A DNA stretch of 49,197 nucleotides from positions 1 through 49,197 of the forward strand of contig CALWXT010000006.1 of assembly GCA_944385575.1 (NCBI GenBank), read 5' to 3'. Each line of letters begins with the position of its first letter. The stretch's first letter is position 1. This DNA comes from an uncultured Flavonifractor sp. (lineage in GTDB: Bacteria > Bacillota > Clostridia > Oscillospirales > Oscillospiraceae). The notes below the pieces were generated by a model. The model had not been told where the DNA came from, searched no databases, and was given only the letters and a program-made list of their open reading frames with translations. The translations under genes and the position numbers were made by a program. Shown piece by piece: positions 3,149-48,037 of this stretch.

Positions 3149-5205
3149 GGAATCTGAAGCATCTGCCATTGTCCGTTCGCGTCCCCATTGAGGAGGACAA
3201 CCCCAGCATTGTGCGTTGGGAAGAAAAGTGCATCCGCTGCGGCATGTGCAAAGAGGCCTGCACCCGGCTGATGGGTGTGCACGGCACCTATACCCTGGAG
3301 GACACCGGAGGGAAAGCCATCTGCATTTACTGCGGCCAGTGTGCCAACGTGTGTCCGGTAGACAGCATCACCGAGCGCGACGAGGTCCCCCAGGTCCGCC
3401 AGGCAGTATCTGACCCAGGAAAAGTGGTGGTCGTGAGCACCTCCCCTGCTGTCCGCGCGGCTCTGGGTGAGGAATTCGGCATGGACCCCGGCGCCTTTGT
3501 GGAGGGGAAAATGGTCGCGCTGCTCCGCGCTTTGGGCGCTGACTATGTACTGGACACCAACTTTGCCGCGGATCTCACCATTGTGGAGGAAGCCAGTGAA
3601 CTGGTCCGTCGGGTGACCCAGGGCGACCGCCCCCTCCCCCAGTTTACCAGCTGTTGCCCCGGCTGGGTGCACTTTGCCGAGCTGTATGAACCCGAGCTGC
3701 TCCCCCATCTCTCCACGGCGAAAAGCCCCATCGGGATGCAGGGTCCCACGGTCAAGACCTACTTTGCCAAGCAGATGGGACTGGACCCCAGGCAGATTGT
3801 CCATGTCGCCCTTACCCCCTGCACCGCCAAAAAATTCGAGATCCGGCGGGAGGAAATGCATGCTGCCGCCGACTACCTCGGCATAGAGGGAATGCGGGAC
3901 ACCGACCAGATCATCACCACCCGTGAGCTGGCCCGCTGGGCCAAAGCGGAAGGCATTGACTGGAACAGCCTGGAGGATTCCGCTTACGATTCCCTGATGG
4001 GCCGCTCCTCCGGCGCCGGCGTTATTTTTGGAAACACCGGTGGCGTGATGGAGGCCGCCCTCCGCACCGCCTATGAATACCTGACCGGCGAGAAGGCGCC
4101 CGACAGCTTGCTCCAGCTCAGTCCCGTCAGAGGGTATGAAGGCATACGGGCGGCTCAGGTACAGGTCGGTGAGCACACCCTGCGGGTGGCGGTGATCTAT
4201 GGCACAGCCAATGCCCGCACCTTCCTGAAGAATATGAAGGAGCATGGGGAGCAGTACCACTTTGTAGAGGTGATGGCCTGCCCCGGCGGCTGCATTGGCG
4301 GCGGCGGTCAGCCCAAAGACCTCATGCGCAACGCGGACGAGACCCGCAAAAGCCGAATCGCGGCCCTTTACCGCCGGGACGGCTCCATGGAACTGCGCAC
4401 CAGCCATGAGAATCCGCAGATCAAGGCGGTCTATGAAGCCTTCTATGGCCATCCGCTCAGCGAACTGGCGGAAAAAATGCTCCATACCAGCTACACCGAC
4501 CACAGCGACATGCTGCGGAGAAAGGACGAAAAATCCATGAGCAAGTGGAAATGCAAAATCTGCGGATACATTCACGAGGGAGACACTCTGCCGGAGGACT
4601 TCACCTGCCCCATCTGCAGGCAGCCTGCCTCCGCGTTTGAAAAGCTGGAGGAGGCACCCGCCGGAAACGGCAATAAATACGCCGGGACCCAGACGGAGAA
4701 GAACCTGCAGGCCGCGTTTGCAGGCGAATCCCAGGCCCGCAACAAGTATACCTACTTCTCCTCCGTGGCCCAAAGAGAGGGCTATGAACAGATCGCCGAC
4801 CTCTTTTTGAAGACCGCCGAAAATGAGAAGGCCCACGCCAGAATGTGGTTCGAGGAGCTCAACGGTCTGGGGAACACGGCCGAAAACCTGCTCCATGCGG
4901 CTGAGGGTGAAAACCACGAGTGGACGGACATGTATGAGGGCTTCGCCCAGACCGCGGAGGCTGAGGGCTTCCCCGAGCTGGCCGCCAAATTCCGCCTGGT
5001 AGCCGCCATTGAAAAGCGGCACGAGGAGCGTTACAGAGCCCTGCTGCACAACGTGGAGACAGCCCAGGTCTTTGAAAAGAGCGAGGTCAAGGTCTGGGAG
5101 TGCCGCAACTGCGGCCACATCGTGGTCGGCACTGCCGCCCCGGAGGTATGCCCCACCTGCCTGTACGCCAAAAGCTATTTTGAAATCAACTGCGAGAATT
5201 ACTGA
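3145..5205 (+). CDS. [FeFe] hydrogenase fused to rubredoxin-rubrerythrin-rubredoxin
   Basis: A 686-aa fusion read as one open frame. Residues ~25-75 hold two [4Fe-4S] motifs (C29-C39 and C60-C70). The H-cluster domain follows with all three signatures: FTSCCPGW (C170/C171), TPCTAKKFE (C226) and [11 protein letters not shown] (C379, C383). From ~466 a rubredoxin (WKCKICGY...CPIC) leads into a ferritin-like rubrerythrin with its ExxH diiron motifs (NEKAH, IEKRH), and a second rubredoxin ends the protein (WECRNCGH...CPTC). The H-cluster can take electrons from H2; rubrerythrin reduces peroxide through rubredoxin iron. The inferred job is H2-linked peroxide reduction, or guarding the hydrogenase from peroxide. 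GTG 3145 is chosen for its 4-nt overlap with the Fur-family gene and AAAGGA nearby. An ATG at residue 465 with its own ribosome site might also give the tail alone. Confidence 0.93.
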
Positions 5206-17189: not shown

Positions 17190-17227
17190 AAAGAAAAGAC
17201 TGTCGTAAGCGACAGCCTTTTCTTTTT
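17188..17227. terminator. bidirectional terminator
   Basis: AAAAAGAAAAG and a CTGTCG/CGACAG stem are mirrored by CTTTTCTTTTT, so it has a T run on either strand. It separates the convergent regulator and ppk genes. Confidence 0.88.
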
Positions 17228-19367
17228 ACTTTTTACCGCGTCCAAAAAGCCTCGCCAGCAGACCGGGTTTCCGCTCCTGCACCGGCGGGGCCTGGACGGC
17301 GGCCAGCGCCTCCCGTTCCGCCTCGTCCATCAGGACGGCCTGGGCGTCCACGCCCGGCGTCCCCTCCGGACGCTCCACCCGTGTATAGGAGCCGTCCGGC
17401 TGGAGCACCCGGGCCTTCACATTGTCCGAGCAGTAGAGCTCCACATAGTGGCGGATCTGACGGCGGACCGCAGGGTCCAGCACCGGGCAGGCAATCTCTA
17501 CCCGCCGTTCGGTATTGCGGGTCATCAGGTCTGCCGAGCCGATATAAATTTTCGTCTCCTCCCCCACGCCGAAGGCGTAGATCCGGGGATGTTCCAGAAA
17601 CCGGCCTACAATGGAAAACACCTTGATGTGGTCGGTCAGGCCCGGCACGCCGGGCCGCAGGCAGCATATGCCCCGGACATTCATGGTTACCGGCACGCCC
17701 GCCTGGCTGGCCTCTGCCAGCTTGTCAATGAGATTCCGGTCGGTCACCGAATTCACCTTGACGAAAATCCGGGCGGGCTTGCCCCGGCGGGCCTTCTCAA
17801 TCTCTCCGTCCATCAGCTCCAGCAGCCGGTTCTTCAGGCTGTTGGGAGCGACCAGCAGCTGGTGATACTCACCGTTCAGATTGGAGGTGGACATGTTCTG
17901 GAAAAAGGCCGCTCCGTCAGCGCCAATGGCGGGACTGGCGGTCATCAGGCAGAAGTCGGTGTACAGCTTGGCGGTCTTTTCATTGTAGTTTCCGGTGCCG
18001 ATCTGGGTAATGTACTGGATATGTCCCCTCTCCCGCCGGGTGATCAGGCAGATCTTGGAGTGCACCTTATATTGCTCAAAGCCGTAGAGGATGGTGCAGC
18101 CCGCTTCCTCCAGCCGCTGGGCCCAGGCAATGTTGTTCTGCTCGTCAAACCGGGCCCGCAGTTCCATGAGTACCGTCACGTCCTTGCCGTTCTCCGCAGC
18201 GGCAGCCAGATACTCCACCAGCTTGGCGGTGGAGGCCAGACGGTAGATGGTGATCTTGATGGAGAGCACCGCCGGATCGTTGGCGGCCTCCCGCACCAGC
18301 TGAAGGAACGGCTCCATGCTCTGGTAGGGATAGAACATCAGGGCATCCCGCCGCAGGATCTGGGGAATCAGCTTCTCCCCCTTTACCAGCCCGGCAGGCC
18401 ACTGAGGCGTGTGGGGCGGATAGCACAGGGCGGCGGCGCTCTCCTGGGGCAGTTTCCCCTCCAGGGAGTATACATAGTTCATCATCAGCGGGCTTTTGGA
18501 GCGGAATACCTGTTCCGGCGTAAGTGCCAGACGCTGGCACAGGTACTGCTGCAGCTCGGCGGAGGCCTCACCCTGGATCTCCAGCCGTACGGGAGCCAGA
18601 CGGGCCCGCTTCTTCAAAATCTTCTGCATATGGGCCCGGAAATCCTCGCCCACATCATAGTCCTCGTCCTCAGGGCTGATATCGGCGTTGCGGGTCACGG
18701 AAATGACGCACTTCTCCTCCACCTGGCAGTTTTCAAAGAGGCTGTCGGCATAGGCCAGTACCACCTGCTCGGTGAGCAGGTACCGCAGGCCCCGCTCCTC
18801 CAGCCGCAGATAGGGCGGCAGGTTTTTGGGGATGGGCACCAGGCCGAAGCACCGCTTTCCCTCCATTTGCAGGGTGAGCGCAATGGTCAGGCTGTTGGAA
18901 GGCAGGTGGGGGAACGGATGGTGGCTGTCCACCACCATGGGCGAAAGCACCGGCTGCACATAGTCCCGGAACCAGCGCTCCACCTGCTTGCGCTCCTTGC
19001 CATCCAGCTCGCCGGGAGACAGATTGCAGATGTTGCAGGTACGCAGCCGCTTTTCCAGCTGGGAGATGATCTTGTCCCGCTGCTTGTACAGGCCCGGCAC
19101 CGTCTTGAAAATGGCCTGAAGCTGCTCAGTGGGTGTCAAGCCGCTCTTGCTGTCCACGTGGGTCTGCTTGGACAGGGTCATGTCGCTGATAGAGCCCACC
19201 CGGATCATAAAGAACTCATCCAGATTGCTGGTAAAGATGGCGGCAAATTTCAGCCGTTCAAACAGAGGCACGCTTTCATCCTTGGCCTCCTCCAGCACCC
19301 GCTCATTGAACCTCAGCCAGGACAGCTCCCGTTCCTGGGTATAGCGGGTATCAATTTCCTTTGTCAT
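17226..19367 (-). CDS. ppk1: Polyphosphate kinase 1
   Basis: A 713-aa membrane-associated kinase that makes polyphosphate from ATP. The N-terminal domain reads TQERELSWLRFNERVLEEA and IFTSNLDEFFMIRV. The two phospholipase-D-like catalytic domains follow. The autophosphorylated His is His436 in QYKVHSKICLITRR, with ELRARFDEQNNI before it and the second catalytic His in FLEHPRIYAFG. Length and motifs match the family. It overlaps ppx by 17 nt, so synthesis and breakdown of polyphosphate are expressed together. The last ~40 residues are a variable tail. Confidence 0.97.
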   Translation of the reverse strand: MTKEIDTRYTQERELSWLRFNERVLEEAKDESVPLFERLKFAAIFTSNLDEFFMIRVGSISDMTLSKQTHVDSKSGLTPTEQLQAIFKTVPGLYKQRDKIISQLEKRLRTCNICNLSPGELDGKERKQVERWFRDYVQPVLSPMVVDSHHPFPHLPSNSLTIALTLQMEGKRCFGLVPIPKNLPPYLRLEERGLRYLLTEQVVLAYADSLFENCQVEEKCVISVTRNADISPEDEDYDVGEDFRAHMQKILKKRARLAPVRLEIQGEASAELQQYLCQRLALTPEQVFRSKSPLMMNYVYSLEGKLPQESAAALCYPPHTPQWPAGLVKGEKLIPQILRRDALMFYPYQSMEPFLQLVREAANDPAVLSIKITIYRLASTAKLVEYLAAAAENGKDVTVLMELRARFDEQNNIAWAQRLEEAGCTILYGFEQYKVHSKICLITRRERGHIQYITQIGTGNYNEKTAKLYTDFCLMTASPAIGADGAAFFQNMSTSNLNGEYHQLLVAPNSLKNRLLELMDGEIEKARRGKPARIFVKVNSVTDRNLIDKLAEASQAGVPVTMNVRGICCLRPGVPGLTDHIKVFSIVGRFLEHPRIYAFGVGEETKIYIGSADLMTRNTERRVEIACPVLDPAVRRQIRHYVELYCSDNVKARVLQPDGSYTRVERPEGTPGVDAQAVLMDEAEREALAAVQAPPVQERKPGLLARLFGRGKK

Positions 19368-20274
19368 GCTCGTTGCTCACTCCCATTACGCGGTTAAGCA
19401 GATAGCCCTCCCGCACGCCGCAGGTGCTCACCGATATGGTCTCCACCTGGTAGGCACTTAAAACAGATGTTAAAATCGCCAGCCCCGGCAGGATGGTGTG
19501 GACCCGATCGGGCACAGATCGCAGGATCTGCCGCAGCGTATCCTGATCTCCCTTTTTCAGGTCCTTGTAGAGGGACTTGATCTCTCCCACCGGGATGATG
19601 CGGTTATCCGGGTCCGCCCCCGCCAGATCGTTGCACAGCTTGGCCGTCGCCCGGATGGTGCCGCCCACACCGGTGAGGTGGCTGCACCGCAGGCCGGCTG
19701 TCCTGGCCTTCTCCAGTTCCTCCTCCACATGTCTGCGGATGGCTTTCCGCTCCTCCTTGGTGGGGAACAGTCCGGAGACATGCCTGGTAAACAGGGACAG
19801 GGACCCCATGGGCAGAGAACAGCCGGAAGTGATGGCGTTGTCCCGGTAGGCCACAAGCTCCGTGGAACCGCCTCCGATATCCGCCAGCAGACCGCAGCCG
19901 GGGGCGCCGCCGCCTACAGTAGCACCCTGGAAGGAGAAGGCCGCCTCCTCCGCGCCGGTAAGCACCTCCACCTGGAGATCTGTCACCGCCTGGATGGTCT
20001 CCAAAGCCTCCTCCGTATTGACAATGTTCCGCAGAGACGCGGTGCCGAATACATAGATCTGATCGATATCAAAATTCCGCAGCAGAGCCTTGAAGCCCGC
20101 CAGCACCCGGCAGGCCACCAGAATCCCGCTGTCGGAGAGCACTCCATTTTTAATATAGCCTGCCAGCCCCGCCATTTCCTTCTTATTCATCAGGAGCTTG
20201 AATGTCTGACCCTCCCAGTGGTAAATGGACAGACGGATGGTGTTGGAGCCTACATCCACGATCCCGCACTTCAT
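19351..20274 (-). CDS. ppx: Exopolyphosphatase / Ppx-GppA phosphatase
   Basis: A 307-aa Ppx/GppA protein of the short, two-domain type that hydrolyses polyphosphate ends or pppGpp. The actin-like ATPase fold motifs are present: GIVDVGSNTIRLSIYHW at the N-terminus, YVFGTASLRNIVNTEEALE, and LLADIGGGSTELVAY. ATG 20274 is chosen because AGGGGG lies 8 nt upstream, rather than the in-frame ATG at 20295. It precedes and overlaps ppk1. Confidence 0.93.
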   Translation of the reverse strand: MKCGIVDVGSNTIRLSIYHWEGQTFKLLMNKKEMAGLAGYIKNGVLSDSGILVACRVLAGFKALLRNFDIDQIYVFGTASLRNIVNTEEALETIQAVTDLQVEVLTGAEEAAFSFQGATVGGGAPGCGLLADIGGGSTELVAYRDNAITSGCSLPMGSLSLFTRHVSGLFPTKEERKAIRRHVEEELEKARTAGLRCSHLTGVGGTIRATAKLCNDLAGADPDNRIIPVGEIKSLYKDLKKGDQDTLRQILRSVPDRVHTILPGLAILTSVLSAYQVETISVSTCGVREGYLLNRVMGVSNEHDKGN

Positions 20275-20304
20275 GGCTCCGTCCCCCTTTCTCATACGTG
20301 GCTT

Positions 20305-20333: not shown

Positions 20334-20352
20334 TAGACTTTACAGAAGTTTT

Positions 20353-20382
20353 ACAGGGCCGCGCCAAACGGCGCGGCCCTGT
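20353..20382 (-). terminator. hairpin after the LOR/SDH-domain gene
   Basis: A perfect 13-bp GC-rich stem ACAGGGCCGCGCC / GGCGCGGCCCTGT with a 4-nt loop. It lacks a good T run on the minus strand and has CGTTTT on the plus strand, but its place after the gene at 20402 fits a terminator. Confidence 0.65.
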
Positions 20383-27098: not shown

Positions 27099-29411
27099 AT
27101 GATCTGGAGGAATTTTTTCCGGGATCTGCGGCGCACCGCTTCCCGGCTCATTTCAGTCAGCATCATCACCATGATCGCCGTGGTGGTGTATACCGGCCTC
27201 AGCGGCATCATTTATAACGTGGACCGCATCATGGACGCCTACTATGGCACCCAGAATGTGGCCGACTACTGGATCACCGGCGTGGGACTTGATATGGCGG
27301 ACTGCCGGGCACTGGAAGGACTGGACGGGGTCACCGGGGTACAGCCCCGGGTGGTGCTGGACGCGGAGGAGCGGCATGACAGCGATATCACTCTGTCGCT
27401 CTACGGCGTGCCGGAAGACCAGTCCATCAACACCTCCTATGTGACCGGGGGCCGCCTGCCCGAAAGCAACCAGGAGATCTTCCTCAGCGATCAGTTCGCC
27501 GAGGCAAGAGGACTTGCAGTGGGAGACTGGTATAAGATCACCCTTACCGGTCTGGGCATCCATCTGCGGCTACAAGTGTGCGGCGTGGGCAAAAACCCGG
27601 AGTGCCTCTACCCTATCAACGCCACCACCCCCTCCCCCGACCTGTCCCGCTACGGCTTTGCCTATGTGAAGGAGGAAGTCCTCAGCGGCGTGATGGGCTC
27701 CCATATCTACAACCAGATCTGCATTACCACCGCCGACGGCGTTTCCGCCGCCCAGATCCGGGCCGAAGTGGACGATGTGCTGGGCAGCAAGGTGGTCAAC
27801 GTCCTTGCCCTGGAGGACAACCAGCAGGCCTACTCCCTGATGGAGACTAAAAACAATCTGGTGCCCATCCTCACCTTCTTCCCCACCCTGTTCTTCCTGT
27901 GCGCGGTGCTGATGATGGTGAGTACCATGAACCGGCTCATTGAAAGCGCCCGGTCGGACATCGGCACCTTCAAGGCCTTAGGCTACTCCGACCGGACCAT
28001 CCTGTTCTACTATCTGCTCCACGCCCTGCTGGTGGTCATCGTGGGCTTCCCGCCGGGGGCACTGCTAAGCAAGTATATCTCCGCCCTCATTGTCTGGACC
28101 ATCGCCACCGGATGCGACCTGCCTCCCACCACGATCGTTCACGACTTTGACGCCTGGGGACAAGCCCTGGGGCTCACCGCACTGTGCTGCATCGGCAGCG
28201 CCTGGCTGGTGGCCCGCTCCCTGCTGAAGGAGTCCCCCGCTCAGTGTATGCGACCCAAGGCCCCCAAGAGCGGCGGCTCCCTTATGCTGGAGCACATCCG
28301 CCCCCTGTGGCGGCGGCTGGGCTTCAATCAGAAATATATCCTGCGCAATACCTTCCGCAACAAGGTGCGCATGCTCACCTGCGTGGTGGGCATCGCCTTC
28401 TGCATGGCTCTGGTGTTCATGGCCTTTGCCATCAAGGACTCCATGGACACATACTCCGACGCTCTGTCCCAAAACCAGAACAGCTATGATGTGATGGCCG
28501 ATCTGAACACCTCAGTGACAGAAAGCCAGTACAGCCGCCTGATTTCCTCCCCCGGCGTCACCGGCGCGGAGCTGGAGATGACCACCACCTGCTGGCTGTA
28601 CAGCGAGGATCAGCGGGCCACCACGACGCTGACGGTCTCGGAAGACGTGGTCTCCCTTCACCTGTATGATCCTTACGCCGAAGCGCCTCTGGCCCTGCCG
28701 GAGGACGGGCTGGTGCTGGAAAAGCAGCTGGCCGATGACCTGGGTTTGGAGGAGGGCGATACCGTCACCCTGCGCTTTACCGGAGAGAGCGGCTATGTCA
28801 CCCTGAGGGTAGCGGAGGTCAACCGCTGTGTCAGCGGCGCCTATGTCAGCCGCAGCATCTGGCGGAGCCTGGGCCGGGCCTACACCCCCACCGCCGCCTA
28901 CCTGACCGCCGGCGACCCGCTCATGCTGGAAAACCAGCTGGACAGCTATGACTTCGTAGACGGCTGGCAGAGCCGGGAGACCGTTACCGCCGCGGTGGTG
29001 GAAAAGATGGAGAACACCTCCATGGTGGTGTACATCCTTATCGTCTTCGGCGGCGGGCTGGCCTGCATCGTCATTTATAATTTGGGCATCATGAGCTTCT
29101 TTGAACAGATCCGCAGCCTGGCCACCCTGATGGTACTGGGATTCTACGAGGGAGAGATCAAATACCTCCAGCTCAGCGAGAATCTGATCTTTGCCGCCGT
29201 GGGCATCCTGCTGGGCATCCCGCTGGGGATCGGGCTGGATCGCTTCCTGATCCTCTCCATTACCGCCATGCCTCTGGAAGTGGTCATCACTGCCAGGGCC
29301 ATCGCCCTGTCCTGCGGCGTGACCATGCTGTTTGCCCTGGCGGTCAATGTGGTCATCGGGCGGAAAATGCGTGAAATTGATATGCTTGGCGCGCTGAAAA
29401 GCGTGGAATGA
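27099..29411 (+). CDS. FtsX-type ABC permease, double length
   Basis: A 770-aa membrane protein with two FtsX repeats. An N-terminal helix (SRLISVSIITMIAVVVYTGL) is followed by a large extracytoplasmic domain and a three-helix block (residues ~265-380). A middle helix (RMLTCVVGIAFCMALVFMAF) leads to a second extracytoplasmic domain and a final three-helix block from ~645. Such two-repeat permeases work with a LolD/MacB-like ATPase, usually to move lipids, peptides or drugs at the outer face. ATG directly follows the ATPase stop. Confidence 0.92.
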   Translation: MIWRNFFRDLRRTASRLISVSIITMIAVVVYTGLSGIIYNVDRIMDAYYGTQNVADYWITGVGLDMADCRALEGLDGVTGVQPRVVLDAEERHDSDITLSLYGVPEDQSINTSYVTGGRLPESNQEIFLSDQFAEARGLAVGDWYKITLTGLGIHLRLQVCGVGKNPECLYPINATTPSPDLSRYGFAYVKEEVLSGVMGSHIYNQICITTADGVSAAQIRAEVDDVLGSKVVNVLALEDNQQAYSLMETKNNLVPILTFFPTLFFLCAVLMMVSTMNRLIESARSDIGTFKALGYSDRTILFYYLLHALLVVIVGFPPGALLSKYISALIVWTIATGCDLPPTTIVHDFDAWGQALGLTALCCIGSAWLVARSLLKESPAQCMRPKAPKSGGSLMLEHIRPLWRRLGFNQKYILRNTFRNKVRMLTCVVGIAFCMALVFMAFAIKDSMDTYSDALSQNQNSYDVMADLNTSVTESQYSRLISSPGVTGAELEMTTTCWLYSEDQRATTTLTVSEDVVSLHLYDPYAEAPLALPEDGLVLEKQLADDLGLEEGDTVTLRFTGESGYVTLRVAEVNRCVSGAYVSRSIWRSLGRAYTPTAAYLTAGDPLMLENQLDSYDFVDGWQSRETVTAAVVEKMENTSMVVYILIVFGGGLACIVIYNLGIMSFFEQIRSLATLMVLGFYEGEIKYLQLSENLIFAAVGILLGIPLGIGLDRFLILSITAMPLEVVITARAIALSCGVTMLFALAVNVVIGRKMREIDMLGALKSVE

Positions 29412-29421
29412 GGTGGTTCTG

Positions 29422-30870
29422 ATGAGCATTGTGAAAAACTGCGGCAGCACGGCCCTGGCCTGTCTGCTGAGCGCGGCCCTGCTGGCCGGCTGCTCCGGCC
29501 AGGACAAGCAGGAGCAGAATACCGTTTTCCCGGACGTGGGTCCGGTAGAAAACACGGTGGAGGACACCGGCACCGTCACCTACCGGGACAATTACAGCAT
29601 TGTCCCCCAGGTCAGCGGCACGGTGGTGTCCTGCTCCATCAAGGAGGGCGACGCCGTCACCGCCGGGCAGGAACTGTATGTGATCGACACCGGCGACCTG
29701 GAAGACCAAATTGAGCAGGCTCGGCTCTCCCTGGACAGCGCCCGGGCCTCCCTGAGCCAGGCCCAGGCCGCCTGTGACGACCTCACCGTCACCACCTACG
29801 CCTCGGGTACCATTACCTCTGTCAGCGTCCACGTGGGGGACTTCGTCTCCTCCGGCACGCCCATCGCCCAGGTGGTGGACAGCCAGAATCTGAAGCTCAC
29901 CGTCCCCTTCTTCACCGAGGATGCCGCCGGCTTCTCCGTGGGAGCCGCCGCGACCATCTCCTTCCCCAGCCGGGCGGAAACAGTGACCGGCACGGTGGAG
30001 CGGATCTATGATACCCCCAGCGCCCTTCCCGGGGGCAGAACGGGTGTGTATGTGGAACTCTCCTTCCGCAACCCCGGCACCGTGCTCAGCGGGGACACCG
30101 CTTCCGCCAGCGTGGGCGGCGTGGCCTGCATGGACACGGGCACGGTGTCCTACGCCACCGAGCAGTCCATCTGTGCCACCCAGTCCGGGCAGGTAATCTC
30201 TCTCCCCATCCAGGAGGGTACCGCCGTCACCGCCGGTCAGACGGTCATGACCATTAAAAACGACAGCCTCACCAACGCGGTGACCAACGCCTCCCTGTCG
30301 GTGGAATCGGCCCGCACCTCCCTCTCCCAGCTGGAAGACAAGCGGAGTGACTACACCATCCTGGCCCCAGCGGACGGCATCATCCTCACCCGGTCGGTCA
30401 AGACCGGCGATATGGCAGCGGCAGGCTCCCCCATGGCGGTGCTGGCCCAGCCAGATGAGCTGTGCGTACACGCTGAGATCAATGAGCAGTACATCGAGCG
30501 GGTCTGGCCCGGCCAGCAGGTCCAGATCTCCTTCACCGACGACAGCGGCCAGCCCAGAAGTTACACCGGCACGGTGGAGCGCATTGACGACACCGGTATC
30601 ACCTCCGGCGGCGTCACCGACTACACCGTGGAGATCTCCCTGGACGACACCACCGGTCTGCGGGACGGCATGAACGTGAACGTGGCCATCATCACCGAGC
30701 AGAAGGAGGACTGCCTCCGGGTGCCCTCTCGGGCGGTGAGCGGCAACACGGTGCAGGTTCTGCGGGACGGCAAGACCGTGGAGGTGGAAGTGGAGACCGG
30801 CATCTCCGGCGGCGGATATACTGAGATCCTCCAGGGCCTGACCCAGGAGGACGAGGTCATTCTCCCCTGA
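29422..30870 (+). CDS. HlyD/RND-type adaptor lipoprotein
   Basis: A 482-aa protein with a lipoprotein signal (LACLLSAALLAGC), so it is anchored outside the cell membrane. It has two biotinyl-lipoyl-like halves (VPQVSGTVVSCSIKEGDAVTAGQELYVID and ATQSGQVISLPIQEGTAVTAGQTVMTI), each with a short helical hairpin (SLDSARASLSQAQ; SVESARTSLSQLEDKR), then beta-barrel segments and a C-terminal KTVEVEVETGISGGGYTEILQGL. ATG 29422 has GAGGTGG upstream. It is the adaptor of the preceding ABC exporter. In a cell without outer membrane it may reach into the wall. Confidence 0.9.
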   Translation: MSIVKNCGSTALACLLSAALLAGCSGQDKQEQNTVFPDVGPVENTVEDTGTVTYRDNYSIVPQVSGTVVSCSIKEGDAVTAGQELYVIDTGDLEDQIEQARLSLDSARASLSQAQAACDDLTVTTYASGTITSVSVHVGDFVSSGTPIAQVVDSQNLKLTVPFFTEDAAGFSVGAAATISFPSRAETVTGTVERIYDTPSALPGGRTGVYVELSFRNPGTVLSGDTASASVGGVACMDTGTVSYATEQSICATQSGQVISLPIQEGTAVTAGQTVMTIKNDSLTNAVTNASLSVESARTSLSQLEDKRSDYTILAPADGIILTRSVKTGDMAAAGSPMAVLAQPDELCVHAEINEQYIERVWPGQQVQISFTDDSGQPRSYTGTVERIDDTGITSGGVTDYTVEISLDDTTGLRDGMNVNVAIITEQKEDCLRVPSRAVSGNTVQVLRDGKTVEVEVETGISGGGYTEILQGLTQEDEVILP

Positions 30871-30876
30871 CAAGAT

Positions 30877-30919
30877 AAAAACATCGGGACACTGGAAAAC
30901 CAGTGTCCCGATGTTTTTT
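30877..30919. terminator. bidirectional terminator between the two export operons
   Basis: A 15-bp stem ACATCGGGACACTGG / CCAGTGTCCCGATGT with loop AAAA is bounded by an A run and a T run. It ends both convergent operons. Confidence 0.92.
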
Positions 30920-32954
30920 ACTGGGTGGCGATGACCCGCACCACGGCGTCGGTACCCAGGGTACCGCTGTAATAGATCGTAAAGGTGTCGGTATAGGCCT
31001 TGGCCTGGGAGAGGGTGATCCAGGTGCCGTTATCGGCGTTGTAGACCTGCACTTCATCGCTGATGGGAACACGGACCCCGTTCAGTACCACTGCGTCCTC
31101 CCCGTCAAAGGAGGAACGGGCCACGCTGTTGGACTGGGACAGGGTAACCACCGCCACCGCCTTTCCATCGCCGTCAACGGCAATACCGCCCATGGCGCCG
31201 TCCCGGACAGTCTGGCCGGTCAGATAGCTCTGGCTGGTTCCGGCGCTGTTCTCCACCGACACGGTGGCATTGACATAGCTCATACTGCCGCTGCCGCCGC
31301 TCTGTTCCCCGGACTCCAGAATGCCGTAGGTGTAGGCGCTGCCGGTCACATCATCCAGCAGCAGCACGCTCACCTCACCGTCGGTATTGGTGGCATAGAA
31401 GTCGATTTTGGACGACGAAACGGTGCTTACCAGGATCTCATCCAGGTCGATCTCCACTACCGCACTCTCCTTCACCCGCTCGTAGACCACCACATTGTCC
31501 GCCAGCGGGATGCTGCCCAGGGTGTTTTTGGTCAGATCCAGCGCAAGGGAAACGCTGCTCTCTGCGGGGGTAACCGACAGCTTGCCTACGCCGGTGGAAG
31601 TGACCTTTACCAGCTCACCTGTCTGGGCAGAGCTGTTGTTGGTAAGGGTGCCTTTCGCCGTCAGGCCACAGGAAAGGACTACTTCCCCATTGCCCAGCAC
31701 GCCGTACTGGCTGACCTGCTGCTGGCTGGAGGAAGCGGCGGAGATCACCTCTCCGGCACCGTCCAGGGTCACCGTGATCCGGTCACCAACGCTGAACTGG
31801 CTCAGGCTGCTCCGGCCGCTGTCCGCCACCGGCAGCTCGATCCCCAGCAGGGTAATGGTATCGGGAGCGGCTGTGTTGGGGCTGGCCCCTTCGTAATAGC
31901 CGCTGAGGCTCACCCCTTCATAGGCCACCGCCTGAGAGGCGGTCACCAGGTCCACGGTCCCCTTTTTGTTGTAGTAGAGGGTCACCGTGTTTCGGCCCTC
32001 CAGGTCATACCAGCTGGACCCGTAAGTGGTGAGGGTGTCATCCAGCAGAACGTTCACCGAGTTGGAAATACTGTGGAAGCTGCCGGAAGTATCAGTAATG
32101 CCGGTGGCCGACACGTCAGAGATGGTCACGGTACGGCTCACGGTATCATCGGGCAGGAAGCCGCATGCGGCTCCGGATTTGTCTAGCAGCAGAGTGCCCC
32201 GGCTCCCCGCCAGGGCGGAGGCCAGCTCCTCCGCCGGCTCATAATAACTCAAGCCCTGGCTGGTACAGATCTGCACCAGGCCGTCCGTGCCGTCGTCCGC
32301 CTCGGCATCCACATCCAGCAGTACCGCGTCGGTTACTCTGGAAGCGCACAGCTTGTCGATGTAGTCGCCCCCCTCCTTGTCGGTCTGGGACAGCAGGCCA
32401 TAGAGCAGCAGAGCGGCTTCTCCCCGGGTCAGAGCGTGGTTGGGATCGCTGGAGATCCCGTCCAGCAGACCCAGCTTCTCGCCCATGCTCATATAGTCCT
32501 CCGGCCAGAAGGGGCCAACATCCTCGGTGGTGTAGCCCAGCAGATGGAGGGCTACCGTCACCGCCTGGCCCACCGTCACGGCATCGTCGGGACCAAACGT
32601 ACCGTCCCCGTAGCCGGAGACCAGGCCCTCCTCATAGGCCAGATTGATATAGGGGGCCGCCCAGTGACTGCCGGTCACGTCGGAAAAGAGGGTGCGGTAG
32701 GCGCTCCCCGTCACCTGGTCTCCGTGGCCCTCCGCCAGCACCGCCAGCTTGCAGAACTGGGCACGGGTCAGGCCGTCGGAGGGGTGATAGGCCCCGTCGG
32801 AATAGCCGGAGACAATACCCAGGCTGTACAGCACCTCCACCGCTTCGGCGGTGTCTCCGCTGACGTCGGTAAAGGCAGAGGCCGGGGCGGGCAAAACCGC
32901 CAGTGTCAGGCACAGCCCTGCCGCCGTCAGCAGGGCGCAGAATGTTCGTTTCAA
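30918..32954 (-). CDS. SLH-domain surface protein
   Basis: A 678-aa secreted protein: Sec signal ([27 protein letters not shown]), then three S-layer-homology repeats. SLH1 begins [27 protein letters not shown]2 [27 protein letters not shown], and the shorter SLH3 [22 protein letters not shown] trimers bind pyruvylated wall polysaccharide. The rest (~residues 190-678) is Ser/Thr/Val-rich beta structure with no domain I can name. It is the last gene of an HlyD-ATPase-MacB-type operon, 18 bp after the permease, which suggests it is a wall-anchored partner or cargo of that exporter. Confidence 0.87.
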
Positions 32955-32972: not shown

Positions 32973-34154
32973 TCAATCCGCCCGCAGGGCGTCCACCGGC
33001 TGGAGGTTGGAGGCCTTCACCGCCGGATAAATGCCGAAGATGATGCCGATGATCACCGAGAACCCGAAGGCGCCCGCCGTCACCAGCGCGCCCGGCAGCA
33101 GAATCAGGTCGTACATGGCCTTGCCCAGCACCAGGCTCAGGCCGAAGCCCAGCAGAATGCCAATAATGCCGCCCATACCGCTGAGGATGGCGGCTTCCAC
33201 CAGGAACTGACCCACGATCTCACCCCGGGGCGCGCCGATAGACTTTTTAATGCCGATCTCCCGTGTGCGCTCGGTAACCGTCACCAGCATGATATTCATA
33301 ATGCCGATGCCGCCCACCAGCAAAGCGATGCCGGCAATGCCGCCCAGTACCACGCTCATGGAGGTCATCTCCTCCGTAGATTCCGTCATGGCGGAGTTGC
33401 CGTTCTCCAGCTCATACTCCCCCACAGTGGAGGAGATCGTATCAGCCAGGAAAAGCTCCAGGCTGGCCATAACGCTGTCCATGTGGTCGGAGGTGTCCAC
33501 CTTCACTGTAAAGGAGGTCAGGTAGTCGGTCTCCAGAATGGCCCGATCCAGCGAGTAAGGGATCACCGCCATATCGTCCATGGAGCTCTCCGTTCCCCCG
33601 TCCTTCTGGTAGTAGACGCCCACCACAGTGAAGGGATTTCCGCCGATGTAGACCGTCTCCCCGATGGGGTCGGCGTACTGGAACAGGCTGTCCGCCACGT
33701 AGGAGCCCAGCACGCATACCATGTTGCGCTGCTCGATGTCAAAGGCGTTGATATCCCGGCCGTCCTCCAATGTGTAGTTATTGCAGGCGGCGTACTGGTC
33801 GCTGCCGAAATACACCGTGGAACTGTCCAGGGTGGTGGTGCGGTATTTCAGGGGCAGAGAGATAGATACGTCGGGGCTGACCCCCTCCACCATATCACCC
33901 AATTCCCCATTGCCGTAGTCGTACAGGGCACTCATCACATCCACCGCGCGGCTGGTATCGTACCAGCTGACGCTCACATTGACCTTGTTGACACCCAGCT
34001 TTTCGTAATAAGCGGTAATGTCGGCGTTGTAGCCGGACACCAGGGCCACCAGCACCAGCACCGCCGTCACGCCGATGATGATACCCAGCATGGTGAGAAA
34101 AGAGCGTCCCTTTTTCTCCCGGATGGAGTCCAGGGCCATCAGAAGTGCGTTCAC
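32973..34154 (-). CDS. MacB-type ABC permease
   Basis: A 393-aa four-helix permease of the MacB/FtsX type. It begins [35 protein letters not shown], then has a large extracytoplasmic MacB_PCD domain ([11 protein letters not shown]...[15 protein letters not shown]...[12 protein letters not shown]). The C-terminal helices contain [43 protein letters not shown] and [12 protein letters not shown]. The start is GTG 34154, overlapping the ATPase stop by 4 nt (GTGA). Partner of the ATPase and HlyD-type protein next door. Confidence 0.93.
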
Positions 34155-34879
34155 GGCGCCACCGCCCGGGCCACGGGCAGATCCACCAGCACGCCGTCCC
34201 ATAGGCTGTCGTGGACGATCTTTCCATCCATGACCCGCACGGTGCGGTGGGCCTGGGCGGCAATACCGTTATCATGGGTGATGAGGATGATGGTGGTGCC
34301 GTCCTGGTTCATCTGCTTCATCAGCTGCAGCACCTGGGCGCCGGTCTTGGAGTCCAGGGCACCGGTGGGCTCGTCGGCCATCAGGACGGGAGAGCGGGCA
34401 GCGATGGCACGGGCGATGGCCACCCGCTGCTGCTGGCCGCCGGAGAGCTGGCCAGGACGGCAGTCCGCCTTGGCGGTGATCTCCACTCGCTCCAATGCCT
34501 CCATGGCCCGCTCCCGCCGCTGAGCCAGGGGCACCTTTTGGTACAGCATGGGTAGGGCCACATTCTGCCACACACTGAGGGATGGGATTAAGTTATAGCC
34601 CTGAAAGATAAATGCGATCTTCCGGGAGCGGATGAGCTCCAGCTCCCGGCGGCTGCGGCCGCTGATGGGGGTGCCGTCCAGGTAATACTCCCCGGAGGTG
34701 GGCACATCCAGGCAGCCCAGAATATTCATCATGGTGGACTTGCCGGAGCCGGAGGTGCCGATGATGGCTACGAACTCCCCCTGCTCAATTTCCAGCGTCA
34801 CTCCGTCCAGGGCATTGACCTGGTTTTCCTGACCTTCGCCGTAGATTTTATAGACATTGTCCAGTCGGATCAAGCTCAT
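34151..34879 (-). CDS. ABC transporter ATP-binding protein (MacB/LolD type)
   Basis: A 242-aa ATPase with Walker [10 protein letters not shown], signature [15 protein letters not shown], Walker [13 protein letters not shown] and switch His in [11 protein letters not shown]. The extra stretch after the D-loop is typical of the LolD/MacB group. ATG with AAGGAGG upstream. It lies 11 nt behind the HlyD-type gene and overlaps the permease start by 4 nt. Confidence 0.95.
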
Positions 34880-34890
34880 ATGCTACCTCC

Positions 34891-36708
34891 TTAACCCATG
34901 GGGCCGCCGCCCATGCCACCGGGCATACCGCCGCCCATGCCGCCCATATTTCCGCCGGGCATGCCGCCGCCCTGGGAGAAGTCGGGCATACCTTCAAACT
35001 CCTGGCTGTTCTCCCCCTGGCTAGTGGTATCGCCGCCGGAGGGCGCGGCCTGCTGATACCGGGTAAAGACCTCCACGTCCTCCTCTACGCCGGAGAGGAT
35101 GCGGACATACCGGCTGTTGGACACGCCGGTCTCCACCGGCACGGCGTAGAAGCCCTCGGGCACCACGCCGTCTTCCAGATCCACCGCGTTTTCCGGGCGG
35201 TTGTCCGCCTTCACAAAGAGGCAGGTGCCCTCACTGGTGCTCTGAAGGGCGGCGATAGGGGCCAGGACCCCTTCCGACTCGTCGCCTACGGTAATGGTGT
35301 AGGACACGTTGACCCCGGCGGAGAGGGCCCCCTCACTGGGGATGGTGATGGTGATGGGGAAATAGGCCACGCCGTTGGTGTTGGTGGCCTCATAGCTGAT
35401 CTCTGTCACCGTTCCGGTATAATGGGTGTCGGATTCCGCCCCCGACTGGGTGATGTCCACCTCCATCCCCATCTGGATGCTGTCGATGTCCAGCTCGTCA
35501 ATGTTGGCGGTGATGGTCATGGAATCCATGTTGTACAGGGTCACCGCCGTCTGGCCGGCCTGCCGGGGGCTCTCCCCTTCCTGCACGCCCACCATGATGA
35601 CCTTGCCGGAGATCTCAGCCGTTACATTGTAGTCCGACCGCTTTTCCTCCGCCTGGGTGATCTTTTCCTCCGTCTGGGTGATTTTCTCCTGGGTCTGGGT
35701 GATGCTCCGGTTTACCGATTCCATCTGCTTCTCCAGGTCGGAGCCGTCAATGGAGAAAAGCACCTTGCCCCTGGACACCGATTCATAGTCGGAGACGTTG
35801 ACGGCAGTCAGCTCCCCGCCGGTCTCTGCCACAAGATCCTTACTGGCGTAATACTCCAGAGTGCCCTCTACCGCGGGATAGAGCTTTTCCCCGCTGTCAG
35901 CGGCCAGGTAGCCGGCGCCGCTCATGCCCTCTGTAAGCGCCCCCGGATTGTCCACCGTCACGGTCACGGCGAAGCACCGGGTGCCTTCGGGCGTCACTCG
36001 GTCCACCTTTTTGATTTCAGTGACGGTGCCTTCAAAGGTATTCATCAGGCTGGCCACCGAAATGCCTGCCTTCATACCCACGTAGATCTGATCCTCATAG
36101 GCATAGCTGAAATACTGGGTGAGGGTCATTTTGCTGTCGTCCACCAGAGTGGCCAGCTTGGTACCGGCGTTGACGCTGTCCCCCACATCTGCCGCCACGT
36201 CTGTCACCCGCCCGGCAAAGGGCGCGGTCACCGACAGGGCCGCCATGCTCTCCTGCAGGTCGGCCAGCTGGTCCTGGGCGTCGGACAGGGTGTTTTCCAG
36301 TTCGGTGATCTCGTCCTGATAGCCTTCGATCTCCTCATCCAGTTCACTGGAATCCTGGGTGTAGAGCAGGTCACCCGCCTCCACGGTGTCTCCGGCGGAG
36401 ACGTAGACGGCGGTGATCTCACTGTCGGAGGCCGTGGTATAGGCCACGCTGTCCGCCGGCAGCGTGGTGCCGGTACCCTCGATGGTGGTGGACAGGCTGC
36501 CGTAAGTGGTGCGCTCCGTCAGGGCCGTCAGTCCCTCGTCAGAAAAAAACAGCACCTTGATTCCCACCCCGGCCGCTGCTGCCACGATCACCGCCGCAGC
36601 CAGAAGAATCACCTTTTTCCGGGTCACCCTCCGGCGGGGCCGTGAAGAAACTGGCGGGGTACTTTCTTCCATACCCGTCTTTCCCTTTTTGATTGCTAAG
36701 AGCTGCAT
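34891..36708 (-). CDS. HlyD/MacA-type adaptor with Gly/Met-rich tail
   Basis: A 605-aa adaptor. A cytoplasmic Arg/Lys stretch and one membrane helix (VILLAAAVIVAAAAGVGIKVL) precede a biotinyl-lipoyl half (YVSAGDTVEAGDLLYTQD), coiled-coil hairpins (EEIEGYQDEITELENTLSDAQDQLADLQ; EKITQTEEKITQAEEK) and beta-barrel segments. It ends in ~35 residues made almost only of Gly, Met and Pro (GGGMPGGNMGGMGGGMPGG), which are disordered and unusual. ATG 36708 has GGGAGG 8 nt upstream; an in-frame ATG at 36672 is a weaker alternative. First gene of the operon whose promoter carries the TTTCAG direct repeat. Confidence 0.92.
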   Translation of the reverse strand: MQLLAIKKGKTGMEESTPPVSSRPRRRVTRKKVILLAAAVIVAAAAGVGIKVLFFSDEGLTALTERTTYGSLSTTIEGTGTTLPADSVAYTTASDSEITAVYVSAGDTVEAGDLLYTQDSSELDEEIEGYQDEITELENTLSDAQDQLADLQESMAALSVTAPFAGRVTDVAADVGDSVNAGTKLATLVDDSKMTLTQYFSYAYEDQIYVGMKAGISVASLMNTFEGTVTEIKKVDRVTPEGTRCFAVTVTVDNPGALTEGMSGAGYLAADSGEKLYPAVEGTLEYYASKDLVAETGGELTAVNVSDYESVSRGKVLFSIDGSDLEKQMESVNRSITQTQEKITQTEEKITQAEEKRSDYNVTAEISGKVIMVGVQEGESPRQAGQTAVTLYNMDSMTITANIDELDIDSIQMGMEVDITQSGAESDTHYTGTVTEISYEATNTNGVAYFPITITIPSEGALSAGVNVSYTITVGDESEGVLAPIAALQSTSEGTCLFVKADNRPENAVDLEDGVVPEGFYAVPVETGVSNSRYVRILSGVEEDVEVFTRYQQAAPSGGDTTSQGENSQEFEGMPDFSQGGGMPGGNMGGMGGGMPGGMGGGPMG

Positions 36709-36744: not shown

Positions 36745-36777
36745 AGTATAGTTCCGTAAGCTGAAATTACCCTGAAA
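36745..36777 (-). promoter_or_regulatory. promoter of the right-hand export operon with response-regulator box
   Basis: On the minus strand TTTCAG-N5-TTTCAG (36777-36761) is followed by 10 bp and TATACT (36750-36745). The two half-sites repeat every 11 bp, the spacing used by OmpR/PhoB-family regulators, and the box takes the place of the -35 element. The same architecture occurs at 36841-36873 on the other strand. Confidence 0.75.
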
Positions 36778-36840
36778 AAGCAGCTATGGAAATTGTTAAC
36801 ACTCTGTAAAACCTTTTTTCCCAAAAGTCTGCTATCCTTT

Positions 36841-36873
36841 TTTCAGACAAATTTCAGGATGGCGGAATATGAT
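36841..36873 (+). promoter_or_regulatory. promoter of the two-component operon with response-regulator box
   Basis: TTTCAG-N5-TTTCAG (36841-36857), 10 bp, then TATGAT (36868-36873), about 34 bp before the response regulator start. It is the mirror of the box in front of the divergent export operon, so autoregulation is likely. Confidence 0.75.
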
Positions 36874-36906: not shown

Positions 36907-37584
36907 ATGCGGATCTTGATCGTGGAAGACGAGCGGCGGCTGGCGGAGGCACTGGGCCAGATCATGGAGGAACAGCGCTATCAGGCAGATCTGGTCTATG
37001 ATGGGGCCGACGGGGTGGATTACGCACTCACCGGCCAGTATGACGCCATTATCCTGGATGTGATGCTGCCCAAAGTGGATGGATTTGAGGTAGCCCGCCG
37101 GCTGCGTGCCGCCCATGTGTCCACCCCCATCCTGATGCTGACCGCCCGGGATGAGGTGCCCGACAAGATCGCCGGACTGGATCACGGCGCGGACGACTAT
37201 ATGACAAAGCCCTTTGATATCGGAGAGCTGCTGGCCAGGGTGCGGGCCCTCACCCGGCGGCAGGGCGAAGTGGTGGGTGAACAGCTTGTGGCCGGAGACT
37301 TGACCCTGGATCTGTCTTCCCGCTGCCTGCGGCGGGGGGAAAAGTCCGTGCGCCTGGGCTTCAAGGAGTTCGACGTGCTCCGGCTGCTGATGATCCACCC
37401 CCGTTCCGTGGTGCCCAAGGAGGACATTATTTCCCGGGTATGGGGCCTGGAATCCGACGCGGAGGACAATAATGTAGAGGTCTACATCTCCTTCCTGCGG
37501 AAAAAGCTGCTCTACCTCTCCTCCGCCGTCACCATTGGAACCGTCCGGAAAGTTGGATATTACCTGGAGGCACCGGCGGAATGA
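36907..37584 (+). CDS. OmpR-family response regulator
   Basis: A 225-aa regulator. The receiver domain (MRILIVEDERRLAEALG) has the phospho-acceptor Asp51 in IILDVMLPKVDGF, the switch Thr in MLTAR and the Lys in YMTKPFDIGELLARV. The C-terminal winged helix reads LGFKEFDVLRLLMIHPRSVVPKEDIISRVWG and NNVEVYISFLRKKL. ATG 36907 has AAAGGA upstream, and the conserved start matches. The histidine kinase gene overlaps its stop by 4 nt (ATGA). The TTTCAG boxes fit its binding mode. Confidence 0.95.
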   Translation: MRILIVEDERRLAEALGQIMEEQRYQADLVYDGADGVDYALTGQYDAIILDVMLPKVDGFEVARRLRAAHVSTPILMLTARDEVPDKIAGLDHGADDYMTKPFDIGELLARVRALTRRQGEVVGEQLVAGDLTLDLSSRCLRRGEKSVRLGFKEFDVLRLLMIHPRSVVPKEDIISRVWGLESDAEDNNVEVYISFLRKKLLYLSSAVTIGTVRKVGYYLEAPAE

Positions 37585-38837
37585 TTCGGAAACTGCGGCG
37601 GAAATTCATTCTCATCAATCTGTTGCTGGTAGGGATCGTACTGACGGTAGTTTTCGCTCTGCTGGTGGCCTCCAATGCCCGGCGGCTCAGCGATCAGAGC
37701 GAGACGGCCATGCGCATGGCCCTCAACTGGCGGGACGGGGAAAATCCGCGCTTTGAGATCGGCGGCCCGCCGCCGGACCATACCATGTCCGAGGATGGAA
37801 AGCGATTTTCCATGGTGCCCGTCTTTGTGGTGACCGTGGAAGACGGCGCCGTTACTGACGTTAACGACGGCGGTCAGGTGGAGGTATCGGAGGAGACGGC
37901 GGAGCAGGCGGCCGAACAGGCCCTTGCGGCAGGTACGGATCGCGGCGTGCTCCCCTCCCTCCGCCTGCGGTTTCTGGCCGAGCAGAGGCCAGACGGCACA
38001 GTCCAGATCGCCTTTGCCGACCAGAGCTGGGAGAGCTGCTCTCTGCGTACCCTGGTGCTGAGCTGTCTGCTGATCTGGTGCCTGGCTATGGCCGCTTTCT
38101 TTTTCGTGGGGCTGTTCCTCTCCTCCCTGGCCCTCCGCCCGGCGGAAAAGGCCTGGAAGCAGCAGCGGCAGTTTGTGGCCGATGCCTCCCATGAGCTGAA
38201 GACCCCGCTCACCGTGATTTTGGCCAACACCGGCATTGTGCTGGCCCACCAGGAGGACAAGGTATCGACCCAGGCCAAGTGGCTGGAATACACCCAGGAG
38301 GAGGCCCGACAGATGAAGGGCCTGGTGGAAGACCTGCTTTTCCTGGCCAAATCCGATGCGGCCAGGCAGGAGGTCCGCACTGCTGAGGTGGATTTGAGCG
38401 AGTTGATTCAGGGTTGTCTGCTGCCCTTTGAGCCGGTGGCCTTCGAGGCCGGCGTTCAGCTGGACGCCAGGATAGATCCGGGCCTGACCCTCACCGGGGA
38501 CGAGGGGCAGCTGAGGCGTCTGGTACGCATTCTGCTGGACAACGCGGTCAAATATGCCGGTGAGGGCGGTTCGGTGGAATTGACCCTGACAAAGCAGCAG
38601 GAGAAGCTGCGGCTCACCGTCTGCAATACCGGCGATCCTATCCCGGCGGAGCACCTGCCCCACCTGTTTGAGCGCTTCTATCGGGCGGACGCCGCCCGGG
38701 ACAGGGCGCAGGGCGGCTACGGACTGGGGCTGGCCATCGCAAAGGCCATCACGGAACATCATCGGGGTAAGATCTCGGTAAGCAGTTCTTTGGAGACCGG
38801 AACTGTATTCACCGTACTCCTGCCACGGAGCGCATAA
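37581..38837 (+). CDS. Sensor histidine kinase
   Basis: A 418-aa membrane kinase. One N-terminal helix (FILINLLLVGIVLTVVFALLVA), a ~130-residue extracytoplasmic sensor region and a second helix (LVLSCLLIWCLAMAAFFFVGLFL) precede the dimerisation domain with phospho-accepting His204 in FVADASHELKTPLTVILANTG. The catalytic domain follows: N box RRLVRILLDNAVKYAGEGG, then PHLFERFYRADAARDRAQGGYGLGLAIAK. The sensor part matches no named domain; the signal is probably envelope stress or an exported compound, by context. Confidence 0.94.
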   Translation: MIRKLRRKFILINLLLVGIVLTVVFALLVASNARRLSDQSETAMRMALNWRDGENPRFEIGGPPPDHTMSEDGKRFSMVPVFVVTVEDGAVTDVNDGGQVEVSEETAEQAAEQALAAGTDRGVLPSLRLRFLAEQRPDGTVQIAFADQSWESCSLRTLVLSCLLIWCLAMAAFFFVGLFLSSLALRPAEKAWKQQRQFVADASHELKTPLTVILANTGIVLAHQEDKVSTQAKWLEYTQEEARQMKGLVEDLLFLAKSDAARQEVRTAEVDLSELIQGCLLPFEPVAFEAGVQLDARIDPGLTLTGDEGQLRRLVRILLDNAVKYAGEGGSVELTLTKQQEKLRLTVCNTGDPIPAEHLPHLFERFYRADAARDRAQGGYGLGLAIAKAITEHHRGKISVSSSLETGTVFTVLLPRSA

Positions 38838-40777: not shown

Positions 40778-40797
40778 TACTCCCGTAAATTGAATGA

Positions 40798-40906
40798 GAT
40801 CTTCAGGGCAGGGTGAAAGTCCCTACCGGTGGTATAGCCCACGAGCCGTAAGGCATGATTCGGTGTGATTCCGAAGCCGACAGTATAGTCTGGATGAAAG
40901 AAGATC
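40798..40906 (+). ncRNA. FMN riboswitch (RFN element)
   Basis: The leader contains the conserved blocks CTTCAGGGCAGGGTGAAA, TCCCTACCGGTGGTATAGCC, GATTCCGAAGCCGACAG and GTCTGGATGAAAGAAG of the RFN aptamer, closed by GATCTTC/GAAGATC. When FMN binds, downstream transcription should stop at one of the two terminators before ribD. Confidence 0.96.
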
Positions 40907-40946
40907 GTTGCCGCGCAGAATATGGATTCTGCGGACTTTGCGATTG

Positions 40947-47825: not shown

Positions 47826-47844
47826 TTGGCCTATACTCGCAAAC

Positions 47845-48018
47845 ACCAATAGCGCCATCACTTAAAACAAGTGAGAGTGTGCAGTCTGTTAGGCTGCACC
47901 CCAACAACGCCTTCGCTGCCGCATCAGGCGAAATTTCGGCGGAATACCCTTTCCCGACGGGGTCCTGGGCCGGCAGGCCTCACCCGGCGGTACTCTTGCA
48001 GTCCGCGCCTCTATTGTG
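47845..48018 (-). ncRNA. Lysine riboswitch (L box)
   Basis: The minus-strand leader has the L-box blocks in order: AGAGGCGC, AAGAGTA, GGGAAAGG, CCGCCGAAA, TTGGGG, a GTGCAG/CTGCAC hairpin, ACTCTCA, a CACTT/AAGTG hairpin and ATGGCGCTATT (compare UGGAGCGCUAUC). The closing stem CAATAG (48016-48011) pairs with CTATTG (47852-47847). It lacks the glycine-riboswitch cores. One conserved position differs (ACTCTCA for ACUGUCA). A search with the lysine-riboswitch model would settle it. Confidence 0.82.
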
Positions 48019-48037
48019 CGGTATTCGATTGCCCCTT

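Follow-up and report, generated by a model that had tools for sequence, protein, structure and literature searches.

The gap between a two-component operon and a divergently transcribed exporter operon is very probably a divergent double promoter under the control of a CiaR-like response regulator, which would activate both its own operon and the exporter operon. This reading has its direct basis in the sequence and spacing of two mirrored boxes, in their conservation, in the co-movement of box and exporter, and in the resemblance of the regulator's recognition helix to that of CiaR. The features on which the argument draws are given below by their positions in the window, i.e. the whole stretch of 49,197 nucleotides that was analysed.

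30918 to 32954, minus strand: SLH-domain protein, the final gene of the exporter cluster (ORF and Pfam)
32973 to 34202, minus strand: MacB_PCD/FtsX permease, start codon uncertain (ORF and Pfam)
34151 to 34879, minus strand: ABC transporter ATPase (ORF and domain profiles)
34891 to 36708, minus strand: HlyD/RND_mfp-type membrane fusion protein (MFP) of the exporter (ORF and domain profiles)
36745 to 36750, minus strand: predicted -10 element TATACT for the exporter operon, with 10 bp between it and the exporter-side box
36761 to 36777, minus strand: exporter-side CiaR-like box TTTCAG-GGTAA-TTTCAG (pattern scan; conserved 5' of the MFP gene)
36794 to 36810, plus strand: third repeat of 11-bp period, TGTTAACACTCTGTAAA, fitting the WalR consensus TGTWAH-N5-TGTWAH, unchanged in the window and L003-L008
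36833 to 36838, plus strand: predicted -10 element TATCCT of P2, a putative second promoter for the regulator; 22 bp separate it from the third repeat and 2 bp from the CiaR-like box that follows
36841 to 36857, plus strand: regulator-side CiaR-like box TTTCAG-ACAAA-TTTCAG (pattern scan; conserved in relatives)
36868 to 36873, plus strand: predicted -10 element TATGAT for the regulator operon (promoter P1), with 10 bp between it and the regulator-side box
36907 to 37584, plus strand: OmpR-family response regulator of 225 aa, with the helix NVEVYISFLRKKL at residues 189-201 (ORF and Pfam)
37581 to 38837, plus strand: sensor histidine kinase, HisKA and HATPase_c (ORF and Pfam)

The minus strand reads, from 36777 to 36745, TTTCAG GGTAA TTTCAG, CTTACGGAAC and TATACT, and the plus strand, from 36841 to 36873, TTTCAG ACAAA TTTCAG, GATGGCGGAA and TATGAT. 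A preliminary description of this DNA had placed two TTTCAG-N5-TTTCAG repeats here, one on each strand and each 10 bp before a TAnnnT hexamer, which is right to the base; it had also called them identical, which holds for the half-sites and for both spacings (5 and 10) but not for the letters within the spacers, and it had missed the third repeat of 11-bp period between them as well as the CiaR type of the box. The arrangement corresponds to the layout of promoters activated by the OmpR/PhoB class, in which a direct repeat of 11-bp period would replace the -35 element about 10 bp before the -10 element. Dinucleotide shuffles of the window gave a mean of 0.13 matches at up to one mismatch, and at least two matches in 1 of 100 shuffles; the window holds two, both exact. 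The exact repeat occurs nowhere else in the own assembly (2,652,902 bases, 81.89% complete; reversed control, 0). That the own genome holds a larger regulon was considered and rejected: the form TTTMAG with up to one mismatch has 32 sites there against 26 for the reversed control, which is no clear excess beyond the two exact sites, and the 1-mismatch sites lack the 10-bp spacing to a -10 element. Among the 30 of these 32 sites that were given a locus, TAnnnT stands at exactly 10 bp in only the two sites of the gap, and at 9 or 11 bp in three others.

Close relatives of the operon do not lack the repeats, a lack that the preliminary description had named as speaking against its reading. In a scan of the 150 bp ahead of the regulator start in the best 80 loci out of 487 confirmed relatives, TTTMAG-N5-TTTMAG with up to one mismatch was found in 64 of the 80 loci (36 without mismatch, 20 with TTTCAG twice), as compared with 0-8 loci for each of the spacers 0-4 and 6-12 and with a mean of 0.38 loci and a maximum of 2 in shuffled upstream sequence, the shuffles for this and for the MFP-side counts keeping base composition and not dinucleotides; these counts are not independent, because these are related loci, some of them almost the same, a relatedness that the spacer controls share. 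TAnnnT follows the box at exactly 10 bp in 58 of these best 80 of 487, and at any other distance from 5 to 15 in 0-10; in 6 further loci the box is present and TAnnnT at 10 bp is absent. No box was found within 150 bp at up to one mismatch in 16 of the best 80 of 487, namely L015, L023, L028 and L032 among the nearer relatives and twelve from L038 on. That the repeats are chance occurrences, or relics without function, might be argued from half-sites just 6 bp long, but the controls on spacer, -10 distance and genome all speak against it, and it is extremely improbable.

The mirrored box follows the exporter. By tblastn, the exporter MFP lies beside the regulator in 6 of the best 80 of 487 loci (L003, L005, L007, L008, L010 and L036, the exporter of L008 being cut off by the contig end), and the order MFP-ABC-permease-SLH recurs in L003, L005, L007, L010 and L036. 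All six exporter-bearing loci among these best 80 of 487 have the mirrored box at up to one mismatch together with TATACT at 10 bp. In the near relatives L004, L006 and L009, the available stretch contains neither the exporter nor the mirrored box, and the regulator box is present. In L010, a DUF5131 gene separates the two boxes by about 0.8 kb, and each box still adjoins its own operon. In the genome G078, about 303 kb separate the exporter box, at 1739199, from the regulator, at 1435752-1436423; both operons have an exact box, and a transposase-domain gene lies upstream of the exporter box. The earlier interpretation that the regulator governs both its own operon and that of the exporter gains support from this conservation and from the movement of box and operon together, as far as sequence can tell. 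A survey centred on the MFP comprised 30 loci, one of which was left out with too little upstream DNA. Among the remaining 29, the full upstream score of 15/15 was reached by the window's own gene and by two homologues at 80% and 71% identity; of six homologues at 43-52% identity, L114-L117 score 12-13, with partial boxes in varying places, and L118 and L135 have a box score at chance level. Among the remaining twenty MFP loci, L128 and L132 lie above most shuffles and the others are without clear signal.

The exporter is one of several divergent partners. A minus-strand box with spacer 5 and distance 10, within 1300 bp upstream, was found in 18 of 81 loci (the window and the best 80 of 487), and the other minus-strand geometries tried occur in 0-1 of the 81, save for 6 at spacer 5 and distance 12; in the window, the latter geometry arises from TATACTGT once more, read with a shift of 2 bases. 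The partners of the 18 boxes are the exporter in 7, a VTC-domain protein (Pfam) in 8, an acyltransferase in 1 (L064), a gene without Pfam match in 1 (L063) and a gene that is unread at the contig end in 1 (L011). Across lineages the box is retained beside differing divergent partners, so that the gap would be a fixed switch with exchangeable cargo.

Sites of this kind also occur beyond these loci. The full pattern TTTCAG-N5-TTTCAG-N10-TAnnnT has 51 sites in 29 of 120 family genomes, as compared with 1 for the reversed control, and a regulator homologue at E ≤ 1e-60 is present in 24 of the 29 genomes with a full site versus 22 of the 91 without. In G029 and G031 (loci L206 and L207), a regulator homologue and a VTC-domain gene have mirrored TTTCAG boxes between them, the upstream sequence of trypsin/PDZ (HtrA-like) genes in two family genomes (L209, 3950; L211, 8541) contains a TTTCAG box, N10 and a -10 element, and in several genomes ABC ATPase genes are preceded by boxes (by eye). 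The genome sets overlap: G022, G019, G045 and G116 resemble L005, L008, L011 and L009 by their box sequences and, because these look alike, are not independent of them. The choice of the ORF after each box was crude, giving a short wrong frame in L007, where the exporter rests on tblastn, and no frame or an unlikely one in several loci. The form TTTMAG with TATAMT has sites in 21 of 196 class genomes, and the strict form TTTAAG with TATAAT in 3 of 398 phylum genomes; no recognisable CiaR was reached through either set as searched by box form. Among the targets predicted in relatives are the exporter, ABC transporters, HtrA-like proteases and VTC-domain proteins, most of them with envelope functions.

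As for the genes on both sides, the regulator matches PF00072 (Response_reg) and PF00486 (Trans_reg_C) above the cut-offs, which bears out its earlier assignment to the OmpR class, and its best named matches are from Flavonifractor. In the kinase, Pfam finds HisKA and HATPase domains only. The exporter resembles MacAB-type exporters in that MFP, ATPase and MacB_PCD/FtsX permease genes stand in a row, and differs from them in that ATPase and permease are on separate genes and an SLH-domain gene belongs to the cluster; its proteins score below the NCBIfam cut-offs for MacA and MacB. Nearby, at 27099-30870, a MacB/FtsX-type permease gene and an HlyD-type gene form another such pair. No TTTCAG box was found at this pair by the window scan, which returned just the two gap sites, whether exact or at one mismatch. 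The window also contains an FMN riboswitch at 40795-40909 (plus strand) and a lysine riboswitch at 47842-48021 (minus strand), both from Rfam.

Proximity does not by itself show which regulator binds the boxes, because near-full-length matches to the YycF model number about 15 in the own genome, counting that of the window. Another OmpR-type regulator could thus read them, the adjacent pair being one target of several, and a candidate exists in a paralogue of 50% identity: at L203 (G000:C29), 3664-3680 on the plus strand, a TTTAAG-N5-TTTAAG box with TATAAT at 9 bp precedes an ABC ATPase gene and lies near this paralogous regulator and a kinase-like ORF. The helix region of the paralogue, however, reads VVWAYISYLRRKL, whereas the box accompanies the gene of the window's regulator in the 64 of the best 80 of 487 loci and the helix is nearly constant there, N-V-E-[VA]-Y-[IV]-S-F-[LIV]-R-K-K-[LFIM] being present in the 80 readable of 81 regulators (window and best 80 of 487); such a foreign reader is accordingly quite improbable.

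With the adjacent regulator as the reader of both boxes, we infer binding, dependence on phosphorylation, activation over repression and an inducing signal, in the following order of events. The kinase would phosphorylate the regulator, which would then bind TTTCAG-N5-TTTCAG as a head-to-tail dimer, occupy the -35 position 10 bp before each -10 element and recruit RNA polymerase. The targets would be the regulator-kinase operon and, on the other strand, the MFP-ABC-MacB/FtsX-SLH exporter operon, and positive autoregulation combined with induction of the exporter would amount to an envelope-stress response.

The third repeat adds a further layer. It is unchanged in the window and in the six nearest loci, L003-L008, including the exporter-less L004 and L006; a relaxed scan across the 81 loci recovered it in the same 7 and gave two more matches placed elsewhere (L023, L054), and in L010 a variant differing by one letter lies on the exporter's side of the inserted gene (by eye). 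A TAnnnT hexamer stands 21-22 bp past the repeat and ends 2-3 bp before the regulator box in 7 of 7 (window and L003-L008), so that the start site of the putative P2 would fall inside that box. This suggests that the regulator operon has two promoters, P1 and P2. The repeat is an exact match to the consensus TGTWAH-N5-TGTWAH described for WalR (YycF; PMC9210968), which has 11 exact copies in the assembly versus 2 for the reversed control. One of these, with 22 bp to TATAAT, precedes a VanW-domain gene (C24), which suits the WalR reading. The third repeat differs from a plain WalR box in that its opposite strand would also fit a TTWACA repeat of PhoP type (Pho-type). The Pho reading is suited by an exact copy at 20339-20355 on the minus strand of the window, before a Ppx/GppA gene that is followed by a polyphosphate kinase gene (17226-20295), and by a copy before a phosphate-binding-like protein (C75). 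A polyphosphate link is also seen in relatives, where VTC-domain proteins are frequent as divergent partners of the regulator. No regulator of the assembly, which is about 82% complete, passes the YycF cut-off of NF040534 (best 304 bits versus 340). It is conceivable, if rather doubtful, that the three boxes form a relay, in which a WalR- or Pho-type regulator, acting at the third repeat, gives basal expression of the CiaR-like pair from P2, and the CiaR-like regulator, by binding over the P2 start, shuts P2, runs P1 and opens the exporter. If true, two sensing systems would hand off from one promoter to the other, an arrangement that the window and the six nearest loci preserve even where the exporter is missing.

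The position of P2 bears on whether the adjacent regulator activates at all, as it might instead repress or exert mixed control, e.g. with the exporter repressed and its own operon activated. The regulator-side box directly follows the predicted -10 element of P2, so that a regulator bound there would shut off this promoter, and a precedent is found in S. suis, in which CiaR is described as repressing the satAB pump (PMC9241815). The 10 bp from box to -10 element is, however, the position of an activator, kept in the 58 of the best 80 of 487 loci, and the gap sequence has by eye no TTGACA-like -35 element at the usual distance, which makes repression or mixed control unlikely and favours activation of both operons.

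The regulator of the window is named CiaR-like because its box, spacing and recognition helix resemble those of streptococcal CiaR as published, for which the site TTTAAG-N5-TTTAAG, 10 bp to the -10 element and a helix VVEVYVSKVRKKL at residues 189-201 are described (PMC3091779). The N5 repeat, the 10 bp and the place of the helix are common to both systems, and NVEVYISFLRKKL and VVEVYVSKVRKKL share 9 of 13 positions and differ in 4. A further likeness is the HtrA-like gene behind a TTTCAG box in two family genomes, htrA being among the reported targets of CiaR, which also feeds back on its own genes (PMC8317062). Unlike in CiaR, position 4 of the half-site is C in the window instead of A; relatives are mixed, and those with the same helix have CC, CA, AA and AC forms. 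The published consensus, NTTAAG-N5-TTTAAG, keeps its first T loosely and its final G invariantly (PMC3091779). That the helix sets the base at position 4 was considered and rejected: NVEVYISFLRKKL occurs with CC in 25 loci, CA in 8, AA in 6, AC in 2, TA in 1 and no box in 9, the window being included and a box being taken as at least 10 of 12 letters within 200 bp, the -10 element not required. Owing to this difference, and since the likeness rests on box and helix and not on a whole-protein alignment or the sensor region of the kinase, the regulator is not filed as CiaR itself. Also unlike CiaR, for which 15 promoters are described in S. pneumoniae (PMC3091779), it has two exact sites in this assembly.

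CiaH homologues are described in the same source as reported from streptococci only (PMC3091779). A search of 198 genomes from the order to which a Granulicatella relative belongs gave 6 matches at E ≤ 1e-60, none with a perfect TTTMAG box (within 220 bp) or the CiaR helix. The open-licence literature yielded no paper on TTTCAGNNNNNTTTCAG, on TTTCAG-N5-TTTCAG or on TTTAAG-N5-TTTAAG in Clostridi, and none on the subject of TTTCAG as a response-regulator direct repeat. The present reading would extend CiaR-type control from streptococci and Bacillus to gut Oscillospiraceae, where the box may be used for target prediction. The wiring proposed here is close to that of BAS0540-BAS0541, as compared by description: in its species, BAS0540 is given as the homologue closest to CiaRH, and TTTAAG-N5-TTTAAG precedes both the BAS0540 gene itself and a gene for an RND-type MFP, with binding to the two upstream regions reported from gel shifts (PMC4938410). 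That system differs in its mixed targets, which include cell division and a stress protein.
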